Source of the DNA: Cardiobacteriaceae bacterium TAE3-ERU3
GTDB taxonomy: Bacteria > Pseudomonadota > Gammaproteobacteria > Cardiobacteriales > Cardiobacteriaceae
Assembly (NCBI GenBank): GCA_019218315.1
Contig: JAHUUI010000001.1
Location: forward strand, 355,722 to 419,721
Direction: 5' to 3'
Length of the DNA: 64,000 nucleotides
In this document: positions 23,783-36,531 of the stretch, piece by piece
Numbering within the stretch: position 1 is the first letter of the stretch
How the letters are laid out: each line of letters starts with the position of its first letter
Position numbers and translations under genes: made by a program
Notes under the pieces: model-generated
Databases searched by the model: none
What the model was told of the DNA's origin: nothing
The model's input: only the letters and a program-made list of their open reading frames with translations

Positions 23783-23917
23783 GAAAGCCTTCAATTAAAA
23801 ACACAGTTAGTTAAAGATCAGGATGGCTTTTATGTTGTATCTGCAGTCAACCCCAACCATATCGTTGAAGCAAATACTTTAACGAGTTTTCATTATGAAG
23901 CCAACAAAAAATATTAA
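23783..23917 (+). pseudogene. Possible gene remnant without start codon
   Basis: One frame stays open for 44 codons up to a TAA at 23915-23917 and reads like real protein, for example KDQDGFYVVSAVNPNHIVEA followed by SFHYEANKK. A TGA precedes it at 23780 and no start codon is usable. It overlaps the beginning of the gene at 23895 in another frame. It may be the 3' end of a lost gene, and no family was recognised. Confidence 0.25.
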
Positions 23918-24647
23918 AGCTTATAATATCCCTAAGTTAGCACTACTTGCAGGTATTTTTTCCGCCATCGCATGGTCGGTTGGCGACATGCTACTGGTCG
24001 GTTATGTCCCCGACCCCGAAGCCTATCCACTACTGAGCAAGACCCTTGCCGCCCACCTTGATAGCGATTTTGCATTGATGATGGTCGAAGGGCATAGTGC
24101 TATTCAGCGCTGGGGAATCTTCCTTGCTACCTTTACCGTCGCAGGCTATCTCTACGCCCTGCTTGCCATCCGTGCACTACTTGCTCCCGGAACCATGCGC
24201 ACAATCATCATCACCCTGCTGCTTTTCCATTACGCACTCTCGCCACTCGGTCATGCCGGATTTTACTTCGCTGGTGAAACATATAAGTTACTGCTCGCCT
24301 CATCGAGCACAAGTAGCAGTGCGATTTTGAAGATGGCCAACGACTTCTACACCATCTTGCTTTGGCACTGGAGTTGCTCACTGACCTGCGCAGCACTTGG
24401 CTGGCTACTGTTTGCCATACAGGTTTATAGACGACGCTCCATCCTACCGCGTTGGATGACATTGGTTAACCCGCTACCACTATCGCTGATCATCGCTGGT
24501 ATATGCAGCCTATTCCCGAGCAGCCAGCTTGCCACCAACATCGGCAGCGCAACATTTAACCTTGCCGCACTCATCTTTTTCACTGGCGTTTGGATGTTTG
24601 TCGTTAGTGGTCACGACATCACCACACCTCCGGAAACACAATCATGA
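23895..24647 (+). CDS. Multi-pass membrane protein of unknown function
   Basis: A 250-residue protein with about six transmembrane helices, starting with ALLAGIFSAIAWSVGDMLLVG and ending with a hydrophobic GVWMFVVSG before a polar tail. Family assignment is uncertain; it resembles DUF6796-type integral membrane proteins. It shares four bases (ATGA) with the methyltransferase gene and is the first gene of the siderophore-type locus, downstream of a Fur-like box. A role in transport or as a membrane partner of the methyltransferase is inference from position. Confidence 0.6.
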   Translation: MKPTKNIKAYNIPKLALLAGIFSAIAWSVGDMLLVGYVPDPEAYPLLSKTLAAHLDSDFALMMVEGHSAIQRWGIFLATFTVAGYLYALLAIRALLAPGTMRTIIITLLLFHYALSPLGHAGFYFAGETYKLLLASSSTSSSAILKMANDFYTILLWHWSCSLTCAALGWLLFAIQVYRRRSILPRWMTLVNPLPLSLIIAGICSLFPSSQLATNIGSATFNLAALIFFTGVWMFVVSGHDITTPPETQS

Positions 24648-25471
24648 AACAGCAAGCCAATTTAACCGGAGTACCCGAGACCATGCTGTGGACGCTGCAC
24701 AACCGTGCATCCGAAGCCATACGCGAAGACGGCTGCATTCGCGACCCGCATTGCCTCGATATTTACAACGCACTCGAATACGACTACGAGCGTCACTTTG
24801 GCAAAGCCGATGGTTCACATGGCGTACGCTCGATGCTCTTTGATGAATATCTGCGCGCATTCCTCGACAAACACCCCGACGGCGTCATCGTCAATCTCGG
24901 CGAAGGGCTAGAAACCCAGCGCTACCGCATCGACGCACCGCAAGCATTATGGTTCAGCATCGACCTGCCCGAAGCCATCGACATCCGCGAACGCTTCATC
25001 AAGCCCGATACGCAGCATATCCACATCCGCAAAAGTGCATTGGATATTAGTTGGTTTAGCGACATTCCCGCCGACCGCCCTGTATTCATCACCGCGCAAG
25101 GGCTATTCATGTACTTCAGCGAAGCACAAATGGCGACCTTCATCCACGCGCTTACCCGGCACTTCCCCGGAGCGCGCCTGATGTTCGACTACCTCAACAC
25201 TTTCCTCTCCAAGCGCAGTATCAGCGACAAAGGCTGGATGAAAACCCCGCACTACCGCACGCCGCCCATGCCGTGGGGCATCAACCGCCGTGACCTCACG
25301 CCAACTTTATCGCGCTGGATCGGGCAAGATATCAAGGTACACAACGTCACCTTCCTTTATCCGCGTGGTTTCAGGCGCTGGTTCGTGCCATGGGCAGAAA
25401 AATACCTCGGCGCATTGATCAACAAAGCTCCCGGCGTTTGCTATATCGACTTTCCCGAACAAAGCTTATAA
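24644..25471 (+). CDS. SAM-dependent O-methyltransferase, LCMT/TcmP-like
   Basis: A 275-residue protein of the leucine carboxyl methyltransferase (PPM1) superfamily. The SAM-binding strand-loop is VIVNLGEGLETQRYRID near residue 85, followed by an acidic WFSIDLPE (ribose-binding) and ITAQGLFMYFSEAQMATFI, the family's conserved helix. Bacterial relatives, such as TcmP, methylate carboxyl or hydroxyl groups of secondary metabolites. It overlaps the membrane-protein gene by four bases and is followed seven bases later by an AraC gene. Its substrate in an uptake locus could be a metallophore or its degradation product. Confidence 0.8.
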   Translation: MKQQANLTGVPETMLWTLHNRASEAIREDGCIRDPHCLDIYNALEYDYERHFGKADGSHGVRSMLFDEYLRAFLDKHPDGVIVNLGEGLETQRYRIDAPQALWFSIDLPEAIDIRERFIKPDTQHIHIRKSALDISWFSDIPADRPVFITAQGLFMYFSEAQMATFIHALTRHFPGARLMFDYLNTFLSKRSISDKGWMKTPHYRTPPMPWGINRRDLTPTLSRWIGQDIKVHNVTFLYPRGFRRWFVPWAEKYLGALINKAPGVCYIDFPEQSL

Positions 25472-25478
25472 ATCAATC

Positions 25479-26411
25479 ATGACCAACCAATATCTCAACT
25501 ACCTTTATTACGACAGCACAGACTGGCAAGTAGAAGTTCACGGTGACAAAGCAGCGGTTATGCACCCAAAACGCAACGGCTGGTCAGGCTATGGCGACTG
25601 CCGCCTACTCGACAACGGCATGATGCTTGGCCGTGCCCACATCACCACCGGTAGTGCAGCGCAAGAACCGCCGATGTCCATGCAATGCCACTTCGGCCTG
25701 CACATCATCTGCGAAGCCGGATACAGCCTATACAGCAATACCTTTGCTCACCCACTGCACGTCCATGCACCGCAAATCTGGCAGCGTTGCGGTGTATTCG
25801 AAGACATCGCGGCAGTCTGGCAAAACAATACCCGCAACCGTGTCCTCACCATTGACTTCACGCCCGAACTCATCGAACGTTGGCGCGAAGATTTTGCCTT
25901 GCCGTCATGGCTGACAATGCCAGCAAGCGACAATCCGCACCTCAAACAACACCACTTGCCGCAACAGCAGCGCATCATGGCACGCACGGCACAAATCATT
26001 GACCACCCCGTCATCACGCTGAACGACAAACTCGCGCTGGAAAGTATGACCCTTGCCCTGTGTAACGAACTATTTACCCTCCCCGAAGCAAAGCACCACT
26101 ACCCGCAAATTGACGATGTTATCGACATCATCCGCAGCGAATACAACCAGCCGCTCACTATTGCCATACTCGCACAACGCAGTGGCATCAATGAATGCTA
26201 CCTCAAGCAGCAATTCAAAGCGCGCACCGGCAAAACCATCGCCGCCTACATCCGCGATCTGCGCATGAAAGAAGCCATGCGCTTATTACTCGATGAAAAC
26301 AAAACCCTACAACAAACCGCATGGTACATCGGCTACCGCAGCCCAGCCAACTTCAGCAAAGTATTCAAAAAAACCTACGGCATCATGCCCACTGAACTGG
26401 TGCAACGTTGA
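25479..26411 (+). CDS. AraC-family regulator, PchR/YbtA-like (copy 1)
   Basis: A 310-residue regulator with an N-terminal ligand-binding domain (CHFGLHIICEAGYSLYSN region) and a C-terminal double HTH. The latter includes LAQRSGINECYLKQQFKARTG and AWYIGYRSPANFSKVFKKTYG. Such regulators sense a ferri-siderophore and activate its receptor. It is a clear paralogue of the next gene, with near-identical HTH blocks, and sits between the methyltransferase and receptor genes. The likely target is the direct repeat before the receptor gene. Confidence 0.85.
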   Translation: MTNQYLNYLYYDSTDWQVEVHGDKAAVMHPKRNGWSGYGDCRLLDNGMMLGRAHITTGSAAQEPPMSMQCHFGLHIICEAGYSLYSNTFAHPLHVHAPQIWQRCGVFEDIAAVWQNNTRNRVLTIDFTPELIERWREDFALPSWLTMPASDNPHLKQHHLPQQQRIMARTAQIIDHPVITLNDKLALESMTLALCNELFTLPEAKHHYPQIDDVIDIIRSEYNQPLTIAILAQRSGINECYLKQQFKARTGKTIAAYIRDLRMKEAMRLLLDENKTLQQTAWYIGYRSPANFSKVFKKTYGIMPTELVQR

Positions 26412-26443: not shown

Positions 26444-27382
26444 ATGACATGCAATATCAACTACCTCCAAGCCTTCGCATCCCTCAGTCATAAACACTGG
26501 CAAGTAGAGGCTTACAATAGCCACACACAGTTTCTGCGCGTCATCCCCACTCGTCCGGGCTGGTCCGGCCACGGAGAATACTGGCAGATAAGCAACGATA
26601 TTCTATTTTCTCGTGGTGATATCTACGCAGCTGACTACCATGAAGAAGTGCCCATATCCACGCAATGCCACTTCGGCATACAATTCACTCTCGATGCTGC
26701 TTATACCATCCACACCACGGCAATGCACAAACATATCGACATCCGCGCACGACAAATCTGGCAGCGCAGCGGCGATTTGGGTGAAGTCGCAACAACATGG
26801 TATGGCAACCAGCAAAACCGATTAATTTCACTTGATTTCAGCCCTGAAATCACAGCACGCTGGCAAGAAGAAGGCCTGCTCAGCACAGAGAATATTTATG
26901 GCAAAGCACCTCTTACCTCAGTAGCCCCAATCCCGACAAAGCGCATCTTCGCTCATGTCGCACGAATTATCGATCAGCCTGTCGTCACAATACACGACCG
27001 TTTGCTGTTGGAAAGCCAGATACTCGCTTTATGTGCCGACCATTTTGCCTACACCGCCCTTCCGCGAAAGGACAAAATTGATGGAGCTATCGACATCATC
27101 CGCAGCGAGTACCACTTGCCACTAACCATCACTGAATTGGCTCAGCGTATCGGGCTCAATGAGTGCTACCTCAAGCAGCAATTCAAAGTTCGTACGGGCA
27201 AGACCATTGCCAACTACATCCGTGATCTGCGCATGAATGAAGCCATGCGCCTATTGCTTGATGAGCACAAAACCCTGCAGCAAACTGCATGGCACGTTGG
27301 CTACCGCAACCCAGATGGATTTAGCCGAGCTTTTCGCAAGGCGTACGGCATTTCCCCCGCCACATTAGTGCGAAATCACTGA
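26444..27382 (+). CDS. AraC-family regulator, PchR/YbtA-like (copy 2)
   Basis: A 312-residue paralogue of the preceding gene. Both share the W-x-x-x-x-R-P-G-W-S-G-like opening, the CHFGIQFTLDAAYTIH effector-domain segment, and the C-terminal LAQRIGLNECYLKQQFKVRTG and AWHVGYRNPDGFSRAFRKAYG blocks. The gap between them is only 32 bases. The duplicates may recognise different ligands or form heterodimers. The receptor gene follows after 101 bases that contain an AraC-type repeat and a Fur-like box. Confidence 0.85.
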   Translation: MTCNINYLQAFASLSHKHWQVEAYNSHTQFLRVIPTRPGWSGHGEYWQISNDILFSRGDIYAADYHEEVPISTQCHFGIQFTLDAAYTIHTTAMHKHIDIRARQIWQRSGDLGEVATTWYGNQQNRLISLDFSPEITARWQEEGLLSTENIYGKAPLTSVAPIPTKRIFAHVARIIDQPVVTIHDRLLLESQILALCADHFAYTALPRKDKIDGAIDIIRSEYHLPLTITELAQRIGLNECYLKQQFKVRTGKTIANYIRDLRMNEAMRLLLDEHKTLQQTAWHVGYRNPDGFSRAFRKAYGISPATLVRNH

Positions 27383-27430: not shown

Positions 27431-27445
27431 TATCGGTCATGGAAA

Positions 27446-27464
27446 AATAATGATTCACATTACT
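27446..27464. promoter_or_regulatory. Fur-like box at receptor promoter
   Basis: AATAATGATTCACATTACT matches 13 of 19 positions of the Fur consensus, with AATAATGAT and CATTA arms. It overlaps the proposed -10 and transcription start of the TonB-receptor gene and lies directly after the AraC-type repeat. This is the expected layout for iron repression combined with ligand-dependent activation. Confidence 0.55.
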
Positions 27465-27483: not shown

Positions 27484-29670
27484 ATGGTCACTTTGCCCTC
27501 ACGCCAGTTACTTTCCATCACAATTGCTAGCCTGCTGTACAGCAGCCTGCCTGCCAGTGCCTACGCTAACAACACCACCGCATATCAGCTCGCCCCAATC
27601 ACTGTCACCGCACGCCACAGTCCCGAACAAGCTCTCGATCTCCCACTGACGGTCAATACCATCACGGACAGCACCATAGATAACCATGCCTTTGCCTCAC
27701 TGGAAAGCGTGCTGACGCAAACTCCCGGCGTCAATCTCAAATCCTATGGCGGTACCGGACAAGCGGCAATCAGAATGCGCGGTGTAGGCGCTCTGAATAA
27801 AGTCACCCTCGACGACTCATCAGTCGTTCTCTACCAAAACGGCATACCACTATCCCTGCTTCAAACTGGCAGCGATCTGTTTGACATGCAAAGCATCGAA
27901 ATTATCAAAGGTCCTCAAGGCACACTGTACGGACGCAATAGCGAAGCAGGTGTCATCAACCTCAAGCCCAACCAGCCCGAATTATTCAACGAATATCATA
28001 TTGGCGCAGAAATCGGCAACAACGGGCACTACCAAGGTGAAGCGGTATTCAATACCCCGATAAATGAGCAAACCAGCGCCCGCCTTGCCTTGCAATACCG
28101 CCATGATGAGCACCCTTATACCAATCATATTGACGGAAAGCCGCTAACGAAGCCCAATGCACTTAATGCTCGCCTCGGCCTGCGTTGGCAAGGCGAGCGG
28201 GACGATATTTTATTCAGCGGCGAGCACCACCGCTTACGCAACTTTGCCACGGCAAACAGCTTACTCGGTAACGAAGCCGTGATAGCGATAACGCCTGGGC
28301 TAATGGCAGACAACGCAAACCACAGCAACCTCAGCCTCAACTGGCATCACGAATTTGACAATTTCTACTTACACAGCACCACAGGCTGGGGCAAATACAG
28401 CAGTTCAAGCAGAATACCAAGCTATGACTGGCGCATATCTCACCGCATTTACGGCCAAGCATTGCATACAGAGACGCATGGCAAAGGCGACAAACAGCAT
28501 TGGTTTCAAGAGCTACGTATTGGTAGCAACGACGATGCACCATTTTTCTGGACTGCTGGCGTGAACTACGAGCACGGCAAACGCAGCACCTATTCCCGCG
28601 CAGGGAAAAGTAACGACCCGAACAGTGCCTATGACCCATTCAACGCACAATTTGACCACTACTTCCGCACCGATAGTGCAGCTGTATTTGGTGAACTCAC
28701 TTATCCAGTATTGGATAAACTCGACCTAACCGCCGGCTTGCGCTATAGCCATGAACACACAGACTATCAGGCTGACTGGACTCCTAATCCAACCTATCTC
28801 ATGCCGGGTGCCAGCGCACAGCAAGATGTGCAAAGCATCAGTGACAACGCGGTTACCGGTCGCCTTGGCCTGAGTTATGCCATCACCGACAACTGGCGCA
28901 GCTATGCCACTTACGCACGTGGTCATAAAGCTGGCGGTTTTAGCGACTGGGACACCAGCATCAGTAGCGGCCAGCCTGCTACACCATATAAACCCGCCAC
29001 TATCGACAGTTTCGAAATTGGTATCAAAGCAGATCTACCTGAGCAAGGCCTCAGTACCAGTGCTGCACTGTTTCACAACCGCACTAAAGGTGATCACCTC
29101 TACGTCTTGGTTGACCCGACAACATCCTATGCCTACACCACGGAAAACGTCGACACCCGTAGCCACGGTATCGAACTCGCGGCAAACTGGCGTGCTAACG
29201 ACAACCTCACTCTCGACGCCAACCTCGCATGGACGGATGCTACCATTACCGGTAAAACTGACAACAGTCGCTCACCGGATATTCGTATCGGCAACCGTAT
29301 ACCGGACGTCGCACGCCTGAGTGGCGGCATTTCTGCTGAATATCGCCAACCTGCGACCTTGCCGCTTGGGCTGGGACAGGGCAACTACACCGCGTTTATC
29401 AGCTATCAGCACACCGGTAAACGCGCTGCGGACGCGCAAAACCATTTCAATCTACCTGCACATAACCAAATTGATGCACGCCTCGGTATCGAAAGCGAAC
29501 ACCTCGACCTTTATCTCTACGGCACCAACCTACTCGGCAAGCGCAAAACCCTCAATGGCTACTATTTACCGGCCATACCCGTCACCTATGGCGGCAGTGG
29601 TGCAGATGCCAAAGCAGGTGCGCTTGGTGCAGGCCGCAGTGTTGGCGTTGGTTTCCGCTACCACTTCTAG
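27484..29670 (+). CDS. TonB-dependent outer-membrane receptor, siderophore type
   Basis: A 728-residue receptor. A signal peptide ends at ASAYA (about residue 27), and a TonB-box-like LAPITVTA follows near 36-43. The plug domain contains TPGVNLKSYGG, IRMRGVGA and IIKGPQGTLYGRNSEAGVINL. About 22 strands of barrel close with GVGFRYHF, whose terminal phenylalanine is the outer-membrane insertion signal. Neighbouring AraC, MFS and YbtPQ-type genes suggest a ferric siderophore of the yersiniabactin/pyochelin class. The true ligand is not readable. AAAGGATG precedes the start. Confidence 0.92.
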   Translation: MVTLPSRQLLSITIASLLYSSLPASAYANNTTAYQLAPITVTARHSPEQALDLPLTVNTITDSTIDNHAFASLESVLTQTPGVNLKSYGGTGQAAIRMRGVGALNKVTLDDSSVVLYQNGIPLSLLQTGSDLFDMQSIEIIKGPQGTLYGRNSEAGVINLKPNQPELFNEYHIGAEIGNNGHYQGEAVFNTPINEQTSARLALQYRHDEHPYTNHIDGKPLTKPNALNARLGLRWQGERDDILFSGEHHRLRNFATANSLLGNEAVIAITPGLMADNANHSNLSLNWHHEFDNFYLHSTTGWGKYSSSSRIPSYDWRISHRIYGQALHTETHGKGDKQHWFQELRIGSNDDAPFFWTAGVNYEHGKRSTYSRAGKSNDPNSAYDPFNAQFDHYFRTDSAAVFGELTYPVLDKLDLTAGLRYSHEHTDYQADWTPNPTYLMPGASAQQDVQSISDNAVTGRLGLSYAITDNWRSYATYARGHKAGGFSDWDTSISSGQPATPYKPATIDSFEIGIKADLPEQGLSTSAALFHNRTKGDHLYVLVDPTTSYAYTTENVDTRSHGIELAANWRANDNLTLDANLAWTDATITGKTDNSRSPDIRIGNRIPDVARLSGGISAEYRQPATLPLGLGQGNYTAFISYQHTGKRAADAQNHFNLPAHNQIDARLGIESEHLDLYLYGTNLLGKRKTLNGYYLPAIPVTYGGSGADAKAGALGAGRSVGVGFRYHF

Positions 29671-29733: not shown

Positions 29734-30942
29734 GTGACTACATCACGTCCACTTTCACACTGGATGCTAATCATCAGCCTCTACACCACCCAACTCCTCG
29801 GCATGGGTTTTCTCATGGTCGCCGTGATTGCAATCTTGCGCGAGCGTGACACCAGCCTCGCTGATCTTGGATGGCTGTACCTGCTCGGCTTACCGTGGGG
29901 GCTAAAGTTTCTTTGGGCACCGCTGATTGACCGCTTCGCCATCCCTCGACTCGGGCATTACCGTGGCTGGCTGCTGATCTTGCAAGCACTCATGGTCATC
30001 ACGCTACTCATCATTGCCCCACAATCGCTTGATCAGAATTTAACCCTCATTGCAACCCTTGGCGCCATATTCATCACGCTTTCTGCCACACAAGACATCG
30101 CCACCGATGCACTGACCACTACCCTGTTCCATCATGATGAACGTGGGCTGGTCAACGGTATGCAAATGGCGGGAGGACAGCTCGGCAGCCTCATCGGGGG
30201 AGGCGGCGTACTCATGCTCTATCCTTTGATCGGCTGGCAAGGTTCGCTTTATCTGCTCGCCGCCCTGACCGCTATCTGTTGGCTACAACTGCTGTTCTTT
30301 CATGAGCCAGCACACTGCACCATTGAGAGCCCACAGACTATTCGCGATGTATTCATGCGTCTATTCAGCTTTTGGCGCGGGCGCAGTTTATGGTTCATCC
30401 TCAGTATTTTCTACCCATTTGGCCTATGTATGACCTACGCCATTCTGACACCAATGCTGGTTGATGGTGGATGGACACTTCCTGAAGTCGGCTTTGCCAC
30501 CAACATTCTCGGCGGCGTGATTGGCATCGCCACAGGGTTGCTCGGGGGCTGGCTAATACAGCATTGGGGGCGCAAGCGCTGCCTGATTGGATTTGCATTA
30601 CTACAAATCGTCGGGCTCGCCGCCATGCTGCCCGCCGCCTTTAGCGCAAACACGGTCAATGTTTATCTCGCTCTCACTGCTTATTATATTTTCTACCCTC
30701 TGGTCATTGCCGTACTTTACACCCTGATGATGGATAAAGCCGCCAAAGGCACAACCCCCGGCACTGATTACACCGTACAAATCAGCATCAACTTTATCGC
30801 TGTTGCCATTGGCGCTAGTGTGGCACTGCCGCTCGCCGAAGCCATTGGCTACCAAGGCGTTATCTTCACAGCCATTGTGATTGCCACTTTGGCCGCCATG
30901 CTCGCTTTCCGTTATAGCCACAATAGGCGACTCGGAAGATAA
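29734..30942 (+). CDS. MFS transporter, RhtX/FptX/AmpG-like
   Basis: A 402-residue, twelve-helix permease starting with GTG, supported by AGGG seven bases upstream; ATG 29764 is an alternative. The motifs LYLLGLPWGLKFLWAPLIDRF and TQDIATDALTTTL, with its D-x-x-T-D-A-L segment, are typical of the AmpG/RhtX group. That group includes inner-membrane importers of intact ferric siderophores (RhtX, FptX) and YbtX. It sits directly after the outer-membrane receptor gene and probably gives a second route across the inner membrane, or exports the stripped ligand. Confidence 0.85.
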   Translation: MTTSRPLSHWMLIISLYTTQLLGMGFLMVAVIAILRERDTSLADLGWLYLLGLPWGLKFLWAPLIDRFAIPRLGHYRGWLLILQALMVITLLIIAPQSLDQNLTLIATLGAIFITLSATQDIATDALTTTLFHHDERGLVNGMQMAGGQLGSLIGGGGVLMLYPLIGWQGSLYLLAALTAICWLQLLFFHEPAHCTIESPQTIRDVFMRLFSFWRGRSLWFILSIFYPFGLCMTYAILTPMLVDGGWTLPEVGFATNILGGVIGIATGLLGGWLIQHWGRKRCLIGFALLQIVGLAAMLPAAFSANTVNVYLALTAYYIFYPLVIAVLYTLMMDKAAKGTTPGTDYTVQISINFIAVAIGASVALPLAEAIGYQGVIFTAIVIATLAAMLAFRYSHNRRLGR

Positions 30943-32808: not shown

Positions 32809-32817
32809 GGAAGTAAC

Positions 32818-33480
32818 ATGAGTAAGCCCAATAATCCTCTCAGCCACTACGAACTGCAAGCCCTTGCAGCACAACTCGCCTGCCCGAGCGGTGAGCAAGC
32901 CGCACAAGTCGGCGACGCGATGGCGGACGGCAACCGCACCATGATTCATCACGCCATCGACCACCTGCAACTGCAAGCAGGGCAGCACGTCCTTGAAATC
33001 GGGCACGGCGGTGCAGACCACCTCGATTACCTGTTCACCCAACAACCCGACTTGTACTACAGCGGCTTGGAACTCTCGCCAGCCATGCACCAGCGCGGCG
33101 AACAGCAGCCACATGCCAATGCCACATTCTATTTATACGACGGCGACAACTTGCCTAATTTTCCGCAACCATTCGCGCGCCTGTTCAGCGTCAATACCCT
33201 GTATTTTTGGCCGCAACCCGCCGAATTTCTCAACGCCTTATCAGACATCCTTGCTACTGATGCACTGGTCTGCCTCACCTACGGCTGCAAAGATTTCATG
33301 ATCAGCCTGCCGTTCAGTCGCTACGGCTTCACCCTCTACGATGAAGCAGACATTGAGCGCCTCGTCGCGCAAACTCCGTTCACCGTACACGCTCACCACT
33401 ACGCAAACGACCACGTTATCAGCAAAAGCGGCGAACCCGTCGACCGCCAATTCTGCACCACCGTACTGCACAAAGCCTAA
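32818..33480 (+). CDS. Class I SAM-dependent methyltransferase between ABC genes
   Basis: A 220-residue Rossmann methyltransferase. Motif I is HVLEIGHGGADHLDYLF (about residue 60), and the ring GLELSPAMHQRGEQ provides the acidic ribose site. The motif-IV-like RLFSVNTLYFWPQPAEFLNAL matches small-molecule methyltransferases of the UbiE/Coq5 type. It starts nine bases after one ABC half and ends nine bases before the other, so all three are co-translated. It could methylate the imported chelator to lower its metal affinity or mark it for export; this is speculation. Confidence 0.85.
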   Translation: MSKPNNPLSHYELQALAAQLACPSGEQAAQVGDAMADGNRTMIHHAIDHLQLQAGQHVLEIGHGGADHLDYLFTQQPDLYYSGLELSPAMHQRGEQQPHANATFYLYDGDNLPNFPQPFARLFSVNTLYFWPQPAEFLNALSDILATDALVCLTYGCKDFMISLPFSRYGFTLYDEADIERLVAQTPFTVHAHHYANDHVISKSGEPVDRQFCTTVLHKA

Positions 33481-33489
33481 GGACAATCC

Positions 33490-35286: not shown

Positions 35287-36531
35287 ATGAAATCAATGTT
35301 CCCCGAACACTTCAGTCTATCTGAAGAAGAAATTGAAAAATTATGGGATAACGCATTATTTGTTTTTGATACTAATACACTACTTAATTTATATAGATAT
35401 TCAGATAAAACAAAAAATGTCTTTTTGAAAATACTAGAAAAATTAAAGAAAAGAATTTGGGTATCAAATCATACAGCAAATGAATTTTTCACTAATAGAC
35501 TTACTGTTATATCTGAACAAAAAAAAGCTTATGAAAACGCCATACAGAAAATAGAAGAGATAAAAGGTATATTTGAAAAAGATAAATCACACCCTTTCGT
35601 TAGCAAAAAAAATTTTGATGCTTTTTCAAGCTGTGTGAAAAATATCTGTAATGAACTAAGAAGCAATGCAGAACAGCAAGGTAAAAAAATTAACAAAGAT
35701 GATACTTTAACAAGAATTGCTGAGTTATTTTCAAAAAATATAGGAGAACCACTAAATTTAGAAACCGTTGAAAAAATAGAAGAGGAAGGTAAAAATAGGT
35801 TTGAAAAGCAGATTCCTCCTGGGTATAAAGATAATAAAAAAAATGAAAATAATTTTGGAGATCTGATTATTTGGAATGAAATTATAGAGAAATCAAAAAA
35901 TGTTGAAATACCTATAATCTTCATTACTGATGATGAAAAAGATGATTGGTGGCATATTTTTGATGGTAAAACATTAGGGCCAAGAAAAGAACTAATAAAG
36001 GAATTTAAAGATAAAACAGGCCAACTTTTTCATATGTATAAATCCTATACATTTATAAAGCATGCCAGCAATTATCTCGAAGAAAAAATTGATGAAAAGA
36101 CTATTAATGAAGCAAGAAGTGTAGGCGAAATCCTTGAAAGAAGAAATAATGAAATAGAATTAACACAAAGAAAACGATCTCTTTTCTCTAATAAAATGAG
36201 ATTCAGAGAAAATGAAAACTTCAATGATCCTGATTTGGAAAAAAGATATTACTTTGAAAATAAACATAGGATAAGACTCTTAGAACTTGAAATCAGGGAA
36301 TTAAAAATGAAAAAAGATTTTTTAACGCAGAGATTTTTCCATTTAGAAAAAGAAATTGATAAATTAAATGAAACAGGAAATAATCGTGAAGCGGATGAAA
36401 AATACCGAGAAGTTACTACGATAAAATCAAGAATTTTTAGTATTGATAATAAAATCATGGATTGCAATGCAGAAATAAACAGAATTAATAACAATTCATT
36501 ATTTGAACGAAATAATCAAATATTGTTTTGA
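35287..36531 (+). CDS. PIN-like (PIN_8) nuclease with coiled-coil tail, AT-rich
   Basis: A 414-residue protein. The PIN-like domain (residues about 20-225) shows acidic positions in FVFDTNTLLNLYR (D28), NEFF (E66), FGDLIIWNEI (D192) and FITDDEKDDWW (D215/D216), the pattern of the PIN_8 family of predicted RNases. The last 150 residues are a charged coiled coil. Codons are extremely A/T-rich compared with all neighbours, so the gene was probably acquired recently. Such proteins occur in defence contexts; here it stands alone, with no partner antitoxin visible. Confidence 0.7.
   Translation: MKSMFPEHFSLSEEEIEKLWDNALFVFDTNTLLNLYRYSDKTKNVFLKILEKLKKRIWVSNHTANEFFTNRLTVISEQKKAYENAIQKIEEIKGIFEKDKSHPFVSKKNFDAFSSCVKNICNELRSNAEQQGKKINKDDTLTRIAELFSKNIGEPLNLETVEKIEEEGKNRFEKQIPPGYKDNKKNENNFGDLIIWNEIIEKSKNVEIPIIFITDDEKDDWWHIFDGKTLGPRKELIKEFKDKTGQLFHMYKSYTFIKHASNYLEEKIDEKTINEARSVGEILERRNNEIELTQRKRSLFSNKMRFRENENFNDPDLEKRYYFENKHRIRLLELEIRELKMKKDFLTQRFFHLEKEIDKLNETGNNREADEKYREVTTIKSRIFSIDNKIMDCNAEINRINNNSLFERNNQILF

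Follow-up and report, generated by a model that had tools for sequence, protein, structure and literature searches.

The gene that separates the two half-transporter genes of a predicted siderophore importer in Cardiobacteriaceae bacterium TAE3-ERU3 encodes a class I SAM-dependent methyltransferase. This enzyme is a lineage-specific, swappable extra and not a subunit of the transporter. The reading that we tentatively favour, at somewhat less than an even chance, is that it is an accessory enzyme which modifies the ligand, encoded in an operon for xenosiderophore import. The window analysed here is a 64,000-nucleotide stretch of this genome, and the genes of the importer run are listed in Table 1.

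Table 1. Genes and junctions of the importer run in the window.
Feature	Position	Strand	Evidence or remark
DUF6796 protein	23895..24647	+	Overlaps LCM gene by 4 nt
LCM-type (leucine-carboxyl-methyltransferase) SAM methyltransferase, second methyltransferase in the run	24644..25471	+	PF04072
AraC-family regulator 1	25479..26411	+	AraC family; in tandem with regulator 2
AraC-family regulator 2	26444..27382	+	47% to regulator 1
TonB-dependent receptor, FyuA (pesticin/yersiniabactin receptor)-like	27484..29670	+	Best solved relative 4epa, E 3.5e-30
RhtX/FptX/AmpG-type MFS permease, YbtX position	29734..30942	+	TIGR02718 E 3.7e-48, under curated cut-off; MFS_1
YbtP-like ABC half-transporter, membrane and ATPase domains, 583 aa	31057..32808	+	648 bits to YbtP (6p6i_A)
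Junction ybtP/methyltransferase, 9 nt	32809..32817	+	AAGGA ribosome-binding site overlapping ybtP stop codon (sequence)
Class I SAM-dependent methyltransferase, 220 aa	32818..33480	+	ATG start; between ybtP-like and ybtQ-like genes
Junction methyltransferase/ybtQ, 9 nt	33481..33489	+	AAGGA ribosome-binding site overlapping methyltransferase stop codon (sequence)
YbtQ-like ABC half-transporter, 575 aa	33490..35217	+	568 bits to YbtQ (solved structures)

Results

The importer is of the YbtPQ type and lies in a genome without condensation domains

An earlier note on this DNA had described a methyltransferase gene with nine-base gaps on both sides between the two halves of an importer, and we confirmed its coordinates and spacing; all three open reading frames are on the plus strand. 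The same note had likened the importer to both IrtAB and YbtPQ, and it is the second likeness that held up. The YbtP-like half is 53% identical to Salmonella YbtP and scores 444 bits to its best non-Ybt match among solved structures, and the YbtQ-like half is 46% identical to YbtQ of Klebsiella/E. coli. Both halves have the exporter fold, and each is closest among solved proteins to its namesake, as expected of a YbtPQ-type importer. The mycobactin importer IrtAB is likewise an exporter-fold heterodimeric siderophore importer, but the score to IrtA is much lower (316 vs 648 bits) and the extra N-terminal domain of IrtA is absent here. A receptor and a permease for the same ligand class adjoin the two halves, the TIGR02718 match of the permease lying below the curated cut-off. 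Between the permease gene and ybtP there is a gap of 114 nt, and the gene run may comprise more than one transcript.

This arrangement resembles the yersiniabactin locus of Enterobacterales (fyuA, ybtA, ybtP, ybtQ, ybtX) in that a FyuA-like receptor, an AraC regulator, the YbtP/YbtQ halves and an MFS permease occur in one run. Unlike that locus, it has a methyltransferase gene splitting ybtP from ybtQ, which overlap in Salmonella, it includes a duplicate of the AraC regulator along with an LCM methyltransferase, and it lies in a genome in which we found no NRPS condensation domain. In pyochelin uptake by Pseudomonas aeruginosa, too, an MFS permease acts together with a heterodimeric ABC importer that is built in the same way (fptX with pchHI; PMC10846271), but there pchHI belong to the biosynthetic operon pchEFGHI and the bacterium makes its own ligand.

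The biosynthesis search was limited to the condensation domain; it was positive in control genomes and found no such domain in this genome or in that of its congener, so that irp1/irp2-type NRPS/PKS synthases of the yersiniabactin locus were not found. The open reading frame and domain listing of the gene run likewise held no synthase-like gene. Given the types of receptor, permease and half-transporters, and the lack of a condensation domain, the operon likely imports a yersiniabactin/pyochelin-like metallophore that is made by others and not by the cell itself. It is very unlikely that the inserted enzyme instead helps to make or finish a small metallophore without an NRPS, in an operon for both production and uptake. 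The run does contain two methyltransferases, its half-transporters have the exporter fold and the search covered the condensation domain only, but no gene in the run resembles a synthase and the halves are closest to the importers YbtP and YbtQ.

Several further features of the region were noted. A second, paralogous receptor-permease-AraC set that is devoid of an ABC pair is found elsewhere in the same genome (contig C3, L054), with identities of 51% for the AraC regulator, 52% for the FyuA-like receptor and 50% for the permease. Directly after the operon lies a gene for a PIN_8-domain protein (35287-36531), whose GC content is 26.5% against 53-58% for its neighbours and which is likely, on this compositional evidence, a recent acquisition; PADLOC gave no match for it. 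A strict Fur-box pattern was not found, and a weak candidate with 3 mismatches before the receptor gene (27443-27461) is not clearly above chance, nor was the outcome of the promoter scan. Rfam returned nothing in the window, and there was no phage match.

The inserted gene retains SAM-binding motifs and shows signals of coupling

The methyltransferase (hereafter the slot methyltransferase, after the ybtP-ybtQ junction that it occupies) passes the Pfam cut-offs marginally, with 27.6 bits against 27 for Methyltransf_25 and 21.3 against 21.2 for Methyltransf_11. Its homologues elsewhere, at 33-38% identity, match Methyltransf_11 strongly and far above the cut-off, and these matches together identify it as a real gene. 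Its SAM-binding motifs are kept: motif I (VLEIGHGG), the acidic residue after strand 2 (within GLELS) and YDGD are all present, and E60, G62 and G64 of the E-x-G-x-G motif are invariant across the family members compared. An AlphaFold model built from the single sequence without an alignment had a mean pLDDT of 39, which is too poor for reading the fold. The GC content of the gene (56.5%) is close to that of ybtQ (58.0%; ybtP, 53.5%), and so gives none of the sign expected of a very recent insertion.

At both junctions, the TAA of the preceding gene is followed by GGA (TAAGGAAGTAACATG and TAAGGACAATCCATG), which places a Shine-Dalgarno-like AAGGA over the stop codon. This overlap supports termination-reinitiation coupling, short of proof, and the suggestion of the earlier note that the three proteins are likely translated together gains from it; we infer from these signals that the slot methyltransferase is co-translated with the importer. 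Tight coupling is also the sole point in favour of the idea that the enzyme methylates the transporter or a regulator and thereby tunes import. We consider this idea scarcely credible, as the family matches of the enzyme are of the small-molecule type (BioC, fatty-acid O-methyltransferase, UbiE-like) and not protein methyltransferases.

The ybtP-ybtQ junction is filled differently in different lineages

We scanned 84,980 species genomes and obtained 80 YbtP loci, of which 76 have both halves; several of the loci are connected with one another through descent or transfer, and the counts are therefore not independent. The halves are adjacent in 69 of the 76 complete loci, at most 243 nt apart and mostly overlapping or separated by no more than 50 nt, which bears out the assumption of the earlier note that half-transporter genes normally lie side by side. 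They are also adjacent in four relatives at the order level. Something lies between them in the remaining 7 loci. In five near-identical loci from Zoogloea, Acidovorax, Roseateles and Thauera it is an RhtX/FptX-type permease. Ottowia sp. oral taxon 894 has a tandem pair of DUF1963 genes there (L116:10797-12622), and a Neisseria sp. MAG an OsmC gene within the reversed order ybtQ-OsmC-ybtP (L110:2620-7018). An apparent N-terminal extension of 440 aa on YbtQ in Zoogloea/Thauera proved to be a wrong-frame open reading frame over the separate permease gene.

None of the 76 loci has a methyltransferase between the halves, and the gene order ybtP-methyltransferase-ybtQ is not conserved. In the one congener genome compared (G001, kinship by genome search; ybtP 73%, ybtQ 68%), the exact same slot holds an unrelated alpha/beta hydrolase gene that joins ybtP and ybtQ with 0 and -1 nt, and no relative of the slot methyltransferase was found in that genome. 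On this survey we reject the idea that the slot enzyme is conserved as part of the importer. The earlier note had named related genomes that usually lack the methyltransferase but keep transport as a finding that would count against it. By gene content this is largely what we see, as the importer occurs with no such methyltransferase between its halves in 76 of 76 loci and in the congener. Since permeases, DUF1963, OsmC and a hydrolase fill the junction elsewhere, close spacing by itself is no proof of a common substrate for the slot enzyme and the importer, although the earlier note had drawn that conclusion from it.

Another genome of the same family (G004) has a single half-transporter gene (L048:8671-10425) that encodes a YbtQ-YbtP chimera, YbtQ-like as far as midway through the ATPase domain and YbtP-like beyond. 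It looks as though a deletion had fused two homologous ATPase domains. A GST gene lies 44 nt upstream, preceded in turn by a transposase-like gene that inspection assigns to the IS30 type. The GST was considered as a third slot enzyme, a candidacy weakened by the chimeric ABC gene, the transposase-like gene and the presence of related GSTs elsewhere in relatives.

Relatives of the slot enzymes occur within and outside metallophore loci

An initial contig scan with the slot methyltransferase alone as query returned no relative. Within the 80 YbtP loci it has one, in Pollutimonas bauzanensis (33% identity), whose gene lies 13 nt past a FyuA-like receptor gene, the last in an MFS-YbtP-YbtQ-TonB run. 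The family occurs in 12 of 398 sampled genomes of the phylum (about 3%), and we estimate that chance would place about 0.01 such neighbours near 80 loci, assuming 20 kb per locus, genomes of about 4.5 Mb and this same frequency of about 3%. Another relative lies downstream of the genes for a TonB receptor and HmuY, and at L165:2862-5719 in genome G588 the gene of a relative shares 4 nt with the end of a gene for a heavy-metal P-type ATPase. For most of the remaining relatives, no metal-transport gene lies next to them. The relative in G011, a genome of the same taxonomic family, lies between pntA and pntB (L005:2041-2709), which encode transhydrogenase subunits; here again the insertion separates genes whose products are partner subunits.

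The congener's slot hydrolase (L043:12628-13434) has an intact nucleophile elbow, G-I-S-A-G, and no relative in the other genomes of the family. When 72,556 plasmid records were searched, it matched best to one domain of a thioesterase-type protein (131 bits), encoded in an NRPS cluster of Halomonas sp. KG2 (L185) together with a YbtP (46%) and a YbtQ (41%). The best match in 369 sampled genomes of the class reached 84 bits, a rough comparison given that the two scores come from different programs. The Pollutimonas and Halomonas links, each spotted after the fact, make a metallophore role for the slot enzymes plausible, and they lend partial, circumstantial support to the earlier proposal that the cargo is the substrate of the methyltransferase.

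The main rival to our reading is that the slot methyltransferase is a passenger: an ordinary enzyme of the small-molecule type, with a role that is general or has no connection with the importer, which profits from the expression of an operon whose junction tolerates insertions. This is nearly as likely as the accessory ligand-modifying reading. It accounts well for a slot whose filler differs by lineage, from the hydrolase of the congener through DUF1963 in Ottowia and the permease in Zoogloea, Thauera, Roseateles and Acidovorax to OsmC in the Neisseria MAG, and for relatives that sit in unrelated operons (pntA-pntB) and in contexts with no metal theme. It fits less well with two of the slot fillers being parts of siderophore systems or having homologues in such systems, and with coupling signals that are tight at both junctions.

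A second methyltransferase of the run recurs at YbtPQ loci

Of the two methyltransferases, it is the LCM-type enzyme, omitted by the earlier note, that turns up repeatedly at YbtPQ loci. It matches PF04072 with 33.8 bits (cut-off 22.3), and its TIGR00027 score is below the cut-off (52.2 vs 93.55). Of the 80 YbtP loci, 10 contain homologues, which are variously placed. Two Lautropia genomes have the gene immediately upstream of ybtP (65-66% identity), and two Marichromatium genomes have it immediately downstream of ybtQ; it precedes the receptor gene in the Zoogloea/Thauera group (also Roseateles and Acidovorax), and a Rhodocyclaceae MAG and Pseudothauera carry it as well. Besides transport, receptor and regulator genes, this is the sole enzyme cluster with a recognised family to recur so widely among the neighbours, the other multi-locus clusters being mostly wrong-frame open reading frames or genes of close relatives. 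In a tree of 15 rows, the locus-linked LCM proteins group together, and the copy of the congener, although its gene is unlinked from the importer, falls inside this group.

The lusichelin cluster is a related system, in that it too combines an LCM methyltransferase, LusM, with ABC, MFS, TonB receptor and AraC genes. The methyl ester at the terminus of these yersiniabactin-like metallophores has been proposed to be the work of LusM (PMC12210259); that cluster is biosynthetic, whereas only import genes are present here. It is a real possibility, if not quite a probable one, that the LCM enzyme is the actual cargo modifier, esterifying a metallophore carboxylate, and that the slot enzyme is secondary or irrelevant. 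This possibility is compatible with the other readings, and its probability is additional to theirs. The recurrence at YbtP loci, the grouping in the tree and the LusM methyl ester all argue for it, but the gene is unlinked in the congener, about 70 of the 80 loci are without it and the role of LusM is itself only proposed. If a methyltransferase of the locus acts on the cargo, comparative evidence makes the LCM enzyme a better-supported candidate than the slot enzyme.

Discussion

Returning to the accessory ligand-modifying reading, the FyuA-like receptor, the RhtX/FptX-like permease and the YbtP/YbtQ heterodimer would bring in a foreign yersiniabactin/pyochelin-like metal complex, and the slot methyltransferase, co-translated with the importer, would most likely act in the cytoplasm, O- or N-methylating the chelator on its arrival or a fragment derived from it. 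Methylation may then weaken metal binding or tag the spent ligand for disposal. A metallophore role of this kind is supported by the types of importer, receptor and permease, the lack of a condensation domain, the junction signals, the kept SAM-binding positions, the neighbours in the Pollutimonas, TonB/HmuY and Halomonas loci, and the permeases found in the slot in five loci. It is weakened by the count of 0 of 76 pairs with the enzyme, its absence from the congener, the relative between pntA and pntB and the mostly non-metal contexts of the family, and also by the junction being filled elsewhere by DUF1963 and OsmC, which have no evident siderophore tie.

A broader proposal would treat the ybtP-ybtQ junction as an exchangeable slot for lineage-specific ligand-processing enzymes, a methyltransferase here and a hydrolase in the congener, which would be co-translated with the importer and alter the metallophore on arrival such that metal is released in a non-producer. 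We regard this generalisation as unlikely.

To our knowledge, the mechanism by which metal is removed from yersiniabactin-like chelators after import is not settled, and we know of no methylation step in the use of siderophores by a non-producer. Both methyltransferases of the run are small soluble enzymes and can be tested directly. If neither acts on the ligand, the locus would serve as a warning that tight spacing in a transporter operon does not equal a shared substrate. If either acts on the imported ligand, this would amount to a novel means of freeing the metal from a stolen siderophore or of disposing of it.
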